IMG/VR virus record: IMGVR_UViG_3300037502_002834
Coordinates: 1 to 44,109 of that record
DNA: 44,109 bases
From: a virus
Direction: 5' to 3' (one strand)
A model generated the notes under the pieces. The model was not told where the DNA came from. It worked only from the letters and a program-made list of their open reading frames with translations, and did not search any database. The translations under genes and the position numbers were made by a program. The first letter of the stretch is position 1; each line of letters starts with the position of its first letter. Below are positions 6,058 to 40,300 of this stretch, piece after piece.

Positions 6058-6651
6058 ATGGACTACGCACGAGCTTACGACTTTCTGATGCAGCGCGCAT
6101 CGGGAAGAGTATTGCTCGGCTATTCGGAAAAGCACCACATCGTGCCAAAATGTATGGGGGGCAGTGACCGGAAGGAAAACATTGTCAGACTCACGGCCAG
6201 AGAGCACTTCATTGCTCACCGGCTGTTGACACGCCTGTTTCCAGAGGTTCCCGGGGTGTGGTACGCCTTGATTGCTATGGGGCGGATACCTGGAGTCAAG
6301 GGTCGTATATTTGCCTCCGAACGGGAGCGCGCAGCAGTTGCTCGGCGGGGGTTTAAGTACAGCCTTGAATCAAGAAAGAAGATGTCCGAGGCTAAAAAGG
6401 GCAAGCCTTCCGTTTCTCCAAAAACACGTTTTCAAAAAGGCCAGACCGCATGGTCGGCCGGAAACACTGGACAAAACACCCCGGGTTATGGCACCAAGCG
6501 CACGCTAACACAGCGCCAGCGGATGTCGGAGGCTCAAAAAGCCTGTGGGAACCGGCCTCCCTCCCGGAAAGGCATTAAATGGACGGAGGCTCAAAAGGCC
6601 TTGGCTAAACTTAAGCGACAAACAAATCTTTTGAAAGGAGAATCCGTATGA
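6058..6651 (+). CDS. HNH homing endonuclease with NUMOD3 motifs
   Basis: This is a free-standing 197-aa HNH nuclease. Motif residues H26-H27, N41, H50 and H54 lie in EKHHIVPKCMGGSD and ENIVRLTAREHFIAH. C-terminal to this are NUMOD3-type DNA-binding repeats (SLESRKKMSEAKKGKP at about 102-117, TQRQRMSEAQKACG at about 144-157, and a weaker third). Such enzymes cut intron- or intein-less alleles or neighbouring genes to spread themselves. The ATG directly follows the TAA of the upstream gene and the 3' end overlaps the next gene by 4 bases, so the insertion kept the operon readable. The DNA is visibly more AT-rich than its neighbours, a sign of separate origin. Confidence 0.9.
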   Translation: MDYARAYDFLMQRASGRVLLGYSEKHHIVPKCMGGSDRKENIVRLTAREHFIAHRLLTRLFPEVPGVWYALIAMGRIPGVKGRIFASERERAAVARRGFKYSLESRKKMSEAKKGKPSVSPKTRFQKGQTAWSAGNTGQNTPGYGTKRTLTQRQRMSEAQKACGNRPPSRKGIKWTEAQKALAKLKRQTNLLKGESV

Positions 6652-36067: not shown

Positions 36068-36469
36068 GTGCCACACGAAGAGCCGGAAGACGGCGAAGAG
36101 TTCGTGCCGAAAGAGCGCGAGCCGCAGGGCCCCAAGCGCAAGCGCGGACGCCCAGGCAGGCCACGCAAGCTCGGTGCAAAGCGCCGCAAGAAGAAGGACC
36201 CACCAGATCGGTTGTCCCCGTCTCAGCGCAAGAAGGCGCGCTGGATCACGGTGACCGTGCCAGCGGACGCCTACGTCAAGCTCAAAGAGATCGCGGCATT
36301 TCGCAAGACGTCGATGTCGCAGGCCATCGCCGACATCGTGGAGCCCGTGTTCGACAAGGTGTACGAGGAATCAATGCTGCTGCTTCGCATCGAACAGCGC
36401 CGACAGAAAGAAGAGGAAGAACGTGAAGCACAACGCCGAAATAACCCTACCGGTCGAACTCATTTTTGA
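36068..36469 (+). CDS. AT-hook plus ribbon-helix-helix DNA-binding protein
   Basis: GTG 36068 lies 6-7 bases after AGAAAGGAG, the strong site that this genome uses repeatedly. The acidic N-terminus is followed by KRKRGRPGRPRK (23-34), an AT-hook that binds the minor groove of AT-rich DNA. Then RWITVTVPADAYVKLKEIAA (about 58-77) and KTSMSQAIADIVEPVFDKVY resemble a ribbon-helix-helix fold. The C-terminal helix is Glu/Arg-rich and may dimerise. Of 133 aa, the two DNA-binding parts cover most. It is a good candidate for a regulator of phage or host transcription and stands first after the polymerase terminator. The next gene overlaps it by 47 bases. Confidence 0.7.
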   Translation: MPHEEPEDGEEFVPKEREPQGPKRKRGRPGRPRKLGAKRRKKKDPPDRLSPSQRKKARWITVTVPADAYVKLKEIAAFRKTSMSQAIADIVEPVFDKVYEESMLLLRIEQRRQKEEEEREAQRRNNPTGRTHF

Positions 36470-36662
36470 AGTCTGGCCAGCACTGGAGGTCCGGGGCGAA
36501 ATGCTCCCGCCAATGGTGGAGGTCACAGCGGTCCTGCTTGAAATCACCGGCCCGGCTGGCAAGCCCCGCAAGGTGGACATCACCAAGGGTATCTCCGAAG
36601 ACCAGCTACTGCTGTGGGAAGACGAGATCATCGATACCTATGGCCCGGATTCTGAGGAATGA
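36423..36662 (+). CDS. Hypothetical protein, 79 aa
   Basis: GTG 36423 is preceded by AGAGGAAGA, while the previous gene still continues for 47 bases in another frame. The product begins with a beta-like segment ITLPVELIFEVWPALEVRGE (about 7-26), then EVTAVLLEITGPAGKPRKVD (about 33-52) and ends acidic (YGPDSEE). It looks like a small alpha/beta protein. I do not recognise a family, and nothing marks a cofactor or membrane segment. The codon use is like the neighbours, and the end overlaps the acetyltransferase start. Confidence 0.6.
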   Translation: MKHNAEITLPVELIFEVWPALEVRGEMLPPMVEVTAVLLEITGPAGKPRKVDITKGISEDQLLLWEDEIIDTYGPDSEE

Positions 36663-37071
36663 GCGGATCGCCGCTGCAGTAGCCTGGACAAAGGATCGTA
36701 TCGGGGCCGACGGGATCGGTGATAACTGCAGCGCAGTGAGCCTGGTGGACGCGCACGACCGCTTCATCGCGGTGTGCGTGTTCTCCTCCTACATCGGTAC
36801 CAACATCGACATGCACCTGGCTGCCGAGCCTGGCCGGCACTGGCTCTCGCGCAGCTACTACAACGCGGTGATGCAGTTGCCTTTTGAGGTGCTGCAAGTA
36901 CCACGGATCACGGGCCTCATCCGGGGCTCCAACCTACGTACCCAGCGCTTTGCAACCCGTATGGGATTTCAGTACGAAGGCCGCATGCGCAAGGTTTTTG
37001 CGGATGGGGACGACCTGGTACTGTACGGTTTCCTGCGAGAAGAATATGAACGACACCCTTGGAGAAAGTGA
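36640..37071 (+). CDS. GNAT-like N-acetyltransferase fold protein, 143 aa
   Basis: I chose ATG 36640, which overlaps the previous gene by 23 bases; no ribosome site stands out. The C-terminal half reads ITGLIRGSNLRTQRFATRMG (about 89-108), FQYEGRMRKVFADGDDLVLY (about 109-128) and ends EYERHPWRK. The pattern 'V/I-x-x-S-N-x-R-x-x-x-F-x-x-R-x-G-F-x-x-E-G-x-x-R' is the terminal half of GNAT acetyltransferases, common in phages. The N-terminal acetyl-CoA loop (Q/R-x-x-G-x-G/A) is not obvious, so catalytic competence is uncertain. Possible targets are host or phage proteins or amino groups; none is indicated. Confidence 0.65.
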   Translation: MARILRNERIAAAVAWTKDRIGADGIGDNCSAVSLVDAHDRFIAVCVFSSYIGTNIDMHLAAEPGRHWLSRSYYNAVMQLPFEVLQVPRITGLIRGSNLRTQRFATRMGFQYEGRMRKVFADGDDLVLYGFLREEYERHPWRK

Positions 37072-38618: not shown

Positions 38619-39001
38619 TAGGCCCCCAAGACTTCCGGGCACAGGAAAGGTACGCTCCCTACCTGTCCCAGCAGACCGAAACCGAGCGCCGCATGAACAT
38701 CGGACCGCAGGCACCGCACGGCCTCACCCGAGACCCGGGCCCGCGCTTGGGCTGCGGCATCGAGTTCCAGATGGAGCGCCTGGCCAAGAACGTTGCGGCT
38801 ATGGAAGAGCGGTTCCACGCCCTGGCCATGAAGCTCGGGCCGCTGACGCGGCCGCTGCCGGAGCCGACTGAAGTGTCGAAGGACACGGGCTACTCCACAC
38901 CTGCGCAGTCGCCGCTGGCGGATCAGGTTGCACGGCTCACGGACCAGATCGAGCGCCTGAACAACGGCATGGCCTACCTGACCGACGGGGTGGACCTATG
39001 A
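38615..39001 (+). CDS. Hypothetical protein, 128 aa
   Basis: ATG 38615 overlaps the previous stop (ATGA). The product is helical with QDFRAQERYAPYLSQQTETE (about 5-24) and ends in a coiled-coil segment PLADQVARLTDQIERLNNGM (about 99-118). The middle is Pro/Arg-rich. I do not recognise a family. It follows the HTH/DUF6378 gene and overlaps the next by 4 bases, so it is part of the same operon. Coiled-coil ends suggest oligomerisation. Confidence 0.55.
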   Translation: MIGPQDFRAQERYAPYLSQQTETERRMNIGPQAPHGLTRDPGPRLGCGIEFQMERLAKNVAAMEERFHALAMKLGPLTRPLPEPTEVSKDTGYSTPAQSPLADQVARLTDQIERLNNGMAYLTDGVDL

Positions 39002-39498
39002 GCCGCCTCAACGATCACGCATGGCTGGAGTTCAAGGCCGCAGGCTGGCTCGACGAGGACGGCCGTTTCAAGGACGACATGCAGGAGGCCATCTGCACGC
39101 ACGTCCTGAAGCTGCTGGAAGTCTTCGCCGAGGAGGGCCACAGCGGCAGCACCGCGCCCTACGCCGCCAACATGTTCAAGACCCTGGCCATGTTCGAACC
39201 TATCGCCCCGCTGACAGGGGAGGACTGGGAGTGGACCGAGGTGGGCACCGGCGTATTCCAGAACAAGCGCTGCAGCCGCGTCTTCAAGCAGGCCGACCGC
39301 TTTGATGGCCAGGCTTACGACCTGGAAGGCAAGGTCTTCTACGAGTGGCACGAGCGCGAGCTTGAGCCCGATGAGGCTGGGTACCCAGGCAAGACCCGGT
39401 ACAAGTCGCACTACACCAGCCGCGACAGCATGGTGCCCATCACTTTTCCCTACAAGCCCATCCACAACTACGTCGAACGTCCATCGGAGGCGACATGA
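38998..39498 (+). CDS. Conserved phage protein, 166 aa
   Basis: The product has HVLKLLEVFAEEGHSGSTAP (about 36-55), then YAANMFKTLAMFEPIAPLTG, EDWEWTEVGTGVFQNKRCSR (about 77-96) and ends SHYTSRDSMVPITFPYKP-like. The set 'E-G-H-S-G-S-x-x-P-Y-x-x-x-x-F-x-x-L-x-x-F-E-P-x-x-P-L-T-G-x-x-x-E-W-x-E-V' with 'Q-N-x-R-C-x-x-V-F' is a widely distributed phage family without known function. The gene overlaps both neighbours by 4 bases. The conserved GHSGS and Q-N-x-R-C blocks suggest a binding or enzymatic role; nothing further is visible. Confidence 0.7.
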   Translation: MSRLNDHAWLEFKAAGWLDEDGRFKDDMQEAICTHVLKLLEVFAEEGHSGSTAPYAANMFKTLAMFEPIAPLTGEDWEWTEVGTGVFQNKRCSRVFKQADRFDGQAYDLEGKVFYEWHERELEPDEAGYPGKTRYKSHYTSRDSMVPITFPYKPIHNYVERPSEAT

Positions 39499-39845
39499 GC
39501 TTCAAAATGCCTGAGAAGTTCCGAGTCAAGCTCTCCGGCTACGCCGAGGGCGACGCGGGCAACGGAGCCTTCGTGGTCAAGCTCAAGCACAGCCAGGTGG
39601 TCTTCGTTCTTGCCAGCGATGGCGCAGGCTGGGAGCACGTGAGCGTGAGCCGCAAGGACCGCTGCCCGACCTGGGAAGAGATGTGCCAGGTCAAAGACCT
39701 CTTCTGGGACGACGAGGACGTGGTCATGCAGTTCCACGTGCCATCCAAGGACCACGTCAACAACCATCCATACTGCCTGCACCTGTGGCGGCCTGTTGGC
39801 CAAAACGTGCTGCGGCCGGATCGCATCATGGTGGGGTTCAAATGA
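39495..39845 (+). CDS. Conserved phage protein, 116 aa
   Basis: The product has FRVKLSGYAEGDAGNGAFVV (about 8-27), KLKHSQVVFVLASDGAGWEH, and then SRKDRCPTWEEMCQVKDLFW (about 53-72), followed by VVMQFHVPSKDHVNNHPYCL (about 77-96) and HLWRP. The 'C-P-x-W-x-E-M-x-x-V-K-D-x-F-W-x-x-x-E-x-V-x-Q-x-H-P/V-x-x-x-x-Y-V/N-N-x-H-x-x-x-L-H-L-W-R' pattern is a widespread small family in bacteriophages and prophages, function unknown. ATG overlaps the preceding stop. The last bases overlap the Ntn-hydrolase gene by 4. Confidence 0.75.
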   Translation: MSFKMPEKFRVKLSGYAEGDAGNGAFVVKLKHSQVVFVLASDGAGWEHVSVSRKDRCPTWEEMCQVKDLFWDDEDVVMQFHVPSKDHVNNHPYCLHLWRPVGQNVLRPDRIMVGFK

Positions 39846-40300
39846 CCGTCATCATCTGGGATCACAAGAACGGTCAGCTCGGCGCTGACAAGCAGGCGAC
39901 ACAGAGTGACCTGGTGCGTCGCGTGACCAAAATCCGCCGCATCAACGGCCACCTGTGCGCAGCGGCCGGGGACTGGGACCTGGCGCAGGAGATGTTTCAC
40001 TGGTTCGAGCAAGGGGCCGAGCCTGGCAAGGAGCCTGCTTGCATGCGCAACAAGGACGACTGGGTGGCCTTTCTGGTCATCACGCCGGACAAGCGTGTGC
40101 TGAAGTACGAGAGGAGTCCGTACCCAATGGACTTCACCGAGGCCGCACGCAGTGACGGCTGGTACGCCTTTGGTTCTGGTCGCGACTTTGCCATTGGTGC
40201 GATGGCCGGCGGCGCAGACATCCACACCGCCCTGGAGATCGTCAGTCGGTACAGCACCGGCTGCGGCATGGGCGCAGATATTTTGTCTTTGGTCGAATAA
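39842..40300 (+). CDS. Proteasome/HslV-like Ntn-hydrolase, 152 aa
   Basis: ATG 39842 overlaps the previous stop (ATGA). After removal of Met1 the protein would begin TVIIWDHKNGQLGADKQATQ, which lines up with the start of HslV and proteasome beta subunits, where Thr1 is the nucleophile. D16 in GADKQAT and K30 in VTKIRRI match the catalytic Asp17/Lys33 partners (numbered here with Met1). GHLCAAAGDWDLAQEMFHWF (about 35-54), then VITPDKRVLKYERS and FGSGRDFAIGAMAGGADIHT (about 111-130), match the S-G-x-D-x-A-x-G-A-x-x-A-G loop. No unfoldase (HslU/ClpX) is present in the window, so partner or substrate is unknown. It may cleave small peptides or act as an adaptor. Confidence 0.75.
   Translation: MTVIIWDHKNGQLGADKQATQSDLVRRVTKIRRINGHLCAAAGDWDLAQEMFHWFEQGAEPGKEPACMRNKDDWVAFLVITPDKRVLKYERSPYPMDFTEAARSDGWYAFGSGRDFAIGAMAGGADIHTALEIVSRYSTGCGMGADILSLVE

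Follow-up and report, generated by a model that had tools for sequence, protein, structure and literature searches.

The window analysed here is the whole 44,109-nucleotide stretch of IMG/VR record IMGVR_UViG_3300037502_002834, which carries tailed-phage genes for head and tail proteins, a primase and a polymerase. It covers part of the genome of a podovirus-like phage whose relatives include DSL-LC04 and Pelagibacter phage HTVC027P. No tRNAs were found in it. The features that bear on the present analysis are the following:

6058..6651, + strand: homing endonuclease-like gene within the structural module (phrog_655, E 1e-43)
36466..37071, + strand: putative acyl-CoA N-acyltransferase of a host-takeover-class family (phrog_4470, E 2.6e-29), just 3' of the DNA polymerase gene
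38998..39498, + strand: Tad3 homologue (PF25185, E 8.4e-33), Tad3 being an inhibitor of type I Thoeris; second gene upstream of the proteasome-like gene
39495..39845, + strand: upstream gene, 116 aa, DUF7694 / phrog_7839, in the same operon, with an ATGA overlap with the start of the proteasome-like gene
39829..39835, + strand: GGTGGGG, Shine-Dalgarno-like, upstream of the ATG (direct sequence reading)
39842..40300, + strand: proteasome-like Ntn hydrolase gene, 152 aa (open reading frame, homologues and predicted structure)

The translation of the last of these begins MTVIIWDH and contains Asp16, Lys30 and a GSGRDFAIGA motif, exactly as an earlier, sequence-only reading had described this M-T-V-I-I-W protein. 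The start site is common to its IMG/VR relatives, of which there are 25 at 54-98% identity, and the GGTGGGG element also lies 5' of the start in 22 of these (L001-L022). Comparison with six relatives gave dN/dS values of 0.09-0.20, indicative of purifying selection, which together with the common start indicates a functional gene; 39842-40300 on the + strand is a genuine conserved gene. The frame stays open upstream as far as a GTG at 39683, 53 codons before the ATG. An N-terminal extension from this GTG was considered and is ruled out by a 78%-identical homologue (L017), in which an in-frame stop lies 7 codons upstream of the start, and by the absence of an alternative start at 76 of 123 homologous loci. 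Given this stop and the conserved Met-Thr start, the protein has no propeptide, and the earlier claim to that effect holds.

The protein belongs to the phage proteasome homologues (PPHs), a phage family published in 2021 and defined as proteasome-like proteins of Caudoviricetes of about 140 residues without AAA+ partners, of which the absence of helix H2 is a hallmark shared with RPC (PMC8665760). It matches phrog_1040, "peptidase HslV family", at E 7.6e-28, a match that serves here as a stand-in for membership in the PPH cluster of the published cluster map. Its length of 152 residues, its origin in a tailed-phage record, its missing H2 and propeptide, and its residues T2, D16, K30 and G43 are all in keeping with the PPH definition. 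The Pfam Proteasome model PF00227 matches the single window sequence weakly (E 0.013, 15.6 bits, short of the curated cut-off of 22.4), and 29 of 66 PPH homologues at E 0.01; a profile of the 66 homologues searched against the PDB finds proteasome beta (E 8e-13) and HslV (E 2.5e-11). By tblastn the protein is matched in 153 phage records, many of them annotated as HslV family peptidase or putative 20S proteasome. A scan of the collection with the Stenotrophomonas phage protein gave no matches. Matches of the single sequence in phmmer to designed SAKe proteins and to a P450 were rejected as spurious, being weak repeats of one short stretch. The gene is thus largely ordinary, encoding a member of a family already known from many more than a hundred sequenced phages, and the expectation that a phage peptidase of this kind would be unusual is not borne out, as the family is published (PMC8665760) and annotated in many phages. 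An HslV without HslU in a phage had also been remarked upon in a paper on a Salmonella jumbo phage (PMC7823757). Apart from the 2021 paper, the literature searched contained nothing on PPH function, and the papers searched report no peptide cleavage by any PPH.

Structure prediction and comparison support the proposed proteasome/HslV-like fold. The AlphaFold2 model of the window PPH (pLDDT 96.1, pTM 0.90) aligns in VIA-align with E. coli HslV (4g4e; Z 17.5, 143 residues), which places model residue 2 opposite residue 1 of mature HslV, and with yeast proteasome beta5 at Z 16.2. Among the matches listed by Foldseek, the top one is the bacterial proteasome homologue BPH (5ovs, E 2.8e-8). As modelled, the window PPH is therefore a proteasome/HslV-type Ntn sandwich. 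The model has a single helix (45-56) followed by a strand (75-80) where HslV has two helices, indicating that helix H2 is absent, and HslV residues 70-84 are without counterpart in the profile alignment. The lack of H2 is shared with RPC, but the C-terminal domain of RPC is absent from the window PPH.

The residues expected to mediate catalysis are almost invariant. T2, D16, K30 and G43 correspond to the family's Thr/Ser1, Asp17, Lys33 and oxyanion Gly47, so that the window protein shares with published PPHs (PHROG 1040) the conserved triad and oxyanion Gly, as well as a size of about 140-150 aa, a phage-borne gene, a terminal Met-Thr and the lack of propeptide, H2 and AAA+ partner. Thr or Ser occupies position 2 in 124/124 phage homologues, a count partly biased by the one query pattern that covered the N-terminus; the sets fetched without an N-terminal pattern (A1, L001-L025 and L035-L045) likewise have only Thr or Ser at this position. 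Asp16 is kept in 124/124 homologues, Lys30 in 122/124 and Gly43 in 123/124, consistent with the earlier assignment of Thr2, Asp16 and Lys30 as catalytic positions. Both outcomes that the sequence-only reading had set against itself, a non-Ntn fold and unconserved residues, were checked, and neither was observed. The SGRDFAIGAMAGG stretch that it had described as a loop is present, but in the model it comprises a GSG motif, containing Ser112 (the Ser129 equivalent), and the helix 114-122 that follows.

Taken together, the window PPH is probably an active enzyme, with peptidase activity as its likely function, and it is judged probable that it is a PPH-family proteasome-like peptidase subunit that uses Thr2 as nucleophile in a homo-oligomer without an unfoldase. 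Methionine aminopeptidases prefer small second residues, and the host enzyme would accordingly be expected to remove Met1, leaving Thr2 as the N-terminal nucleophile. The Thr2 hydroxyl would then be deprotonated by Lys30 together with Asp16, and the Gly43 NH would form the oxyanion hole for an acyl-enzyme that is subsequently hydrolysed by water. The subunit would most likely self-assemble as a homo-oligomer that works without HslU or another AAA+ unfoldase. During infection it may cleave flexible peptides or one particular protein of the phage or the host.

The window's clade (L001-L025 and P0001; counts n=25, against n=99 other PPHs) differs from published PPHs in the second triad, Ser129-Asp166-Ser169. 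At the Asp166 equivalent, 25/25 clade sequences have Cys, Ser or Glu and 94/99 other PPHs have Asp; at the Ser169 equivalent, 25/25 clade sequences have Cys and 97/99 others Thr or Ser. The window PPH itself has Ser138 in place of Asp166 and Cys141 in place of Ser169, with Ser112 retained. Judged by its aligned sequences, the clade has kept the Thr-Asp-Lys triad and lost the second one, and the substitutions at Asp166 and Ser169 genuinely mark the clade; a clade-specific loss of the PPH second triad was not found in the literature searched. In yeast and archaeal proteasomes, the second triad is part of a network that protonates the Thr1 amine; activity is sharply reduced in yeast beta5 D166N, and both autolysis and catalysis are abolished in archaeal D166A (PMC4792962). 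These effects suggest that window-clade PPHs could have low activity. In the profile alignment, the columns of Asp166 and Ser169 are occupied in E. coli HslV by Cys and Thr; since that enzyme is active, activity can persist without Asp166. The incomplete second triad, with the missing propeptide and H2, sets the window PPH apart from the 20S proteasome beta subunits that it resembles in fold (Z about 16) and triad.

The altered second triad and the missing H2 might also be taken to indicate that the window PPH is an Ntn-fold enzyme whose chemistry is different or whose substrate is very narrow (a site-specific peptidase, a connectase-like ligase or an amidase), acting as a monomer or small oligomer, and the monomeric ligase connectase is indeed a proteasome-like protein (PMC8665760). 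Neither the standard triad nor the oxyanion Gly is disrupted, however, and insertions of the connectase type around the active site are absent, making this reading unlikely. Less likely still is that the PPH docks on host HslU as a replacement HslV, redirecting the host HslUV machine, for which the odds are very low. HslV is among the closest solved folds, with matching triad positions, and the phage encodes no unfoldase of its own: the sequence-only reading had noted none, and searches of the window, itself a partial record, and of seven relatives, among them DSL-LC04 with its complete 61.5-kb genome, found neither an AAA_2 match nor an hslU partner gene. Identity to HslV is nevertheless only about 20%, and the HslV residues discussed as contacts of the HslU tail, Ala79 and Lys80, fall in the missing H2 region, while the pocket residue Phe54 aligns with Gln49 of the PPH (PMC6429459). 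Since part of the HslU-tail pocket is gone with H2, borrowing of host HslU by the window PPH seems unlikely. Of the two options raised in the sequence-only reading, borrowing host HslU or working alone, acting alone would be the better fit, by analogy with the suggestion made for BPH-like proteins. BPH is likewise a compact subunit reported to be unfoldase-independent, but at about 185 aa it exceeds the window PPH in length, and it differs further in its long pore loop; the two are about 15% identical.

The gene neighbourhood offers two further readings. In one, the PPH would degrade a host protein, as a protease of counter-defence or host takeover. The gene belongs to a series of small accessory genes and lies two genes after the Tad3 homologue, an arrangement not found in the literature searched, and the presence of PPHs across unrelated phages is scattered and optional-looking. 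The Tad3 link is confined to the window clade, where it recurs in five other contigs, and no other PPH neighbourhood examined outside the clade showed Tad3, so that a counter-defence role is quite improbable. A more elaborate version, in which the window clade represents a phage-specific lineage of PPHs, its second triad rebuilt by Cys for Asp166 and Ser169, acting as an unfoldase-free, substrate-specific counter-defence protease from an operon with Tad3, is a long shot. In the other reading, PPHs serve head or packaging maturation by processing terminase, scaffold or a head protein. Of 22 non-redundant contigs, 15 have the PPH gene no more than 1.2 kb from that for the large terminase, where random placement would give 1.5; this count covers contigs with a phrog_2-detectable terminase, from a set drawn from one query's patterns, which itself weighs against the reading. 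The tendency to adjoin the terminase gene concerns the L047-L125 contigs and Caulobacter phage CcrSC (L027); in CcrSC the PPH is directly 3' of a terminase gene. The region flanking the terminase is a frequent home of optional genes, and the excess may simply reflect PPHs occupying this common slot. In the window's relatives, moreover, the PPH-terminase distance is about 6-12 kb (the 12-kb value assumes a circular 65-kb contig), and in Klebsiella, Escherichia and Rhizobium phages the PPH is located away from the terminase. A head or packaging role thus has little probability. The 2021 paper reported no telling gene context for PPHs (PMC8665760), and adjacency to terminase was not found in the literature searched.

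The unfoldase-free PPH peptidase remains the preferred reading. The first activity found for such a widespread phage proteasome-like peptidase would reveal a new way in which phages cut proteins in the cell, and the window record adds a small, well-conserved PPH with a distinctive active-site variant that can be compared directly with ordinary PPHs.

The gene directly upstream provides no evidence of a functional partnership between the PPH and the DUF7694 gene. This neighbour differs among other PPH phages, and a 4-nt overlap with the PPH start is present at 27 of the 62 loci that have a same-strand neighbour. A conserved operon partner was considered and rejected, as the overlapping upstream genes are mutually unrelated (an HNH nuclease, a terminase fragment and several unknown families), indicating that the overlap reflects tight packing. 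DSL-LC04 encodes its own PPH, annotated as "ATP-dependent protease"; there (L034:21118-21982) an HNH endonuclease gene overlaps that for the PPH, and most of the surrounding genes are on the strand opposite to these two. Two PPH matches, close to opposite ends, are present on one 42-kb IMG/VR contig (L069 and L073).
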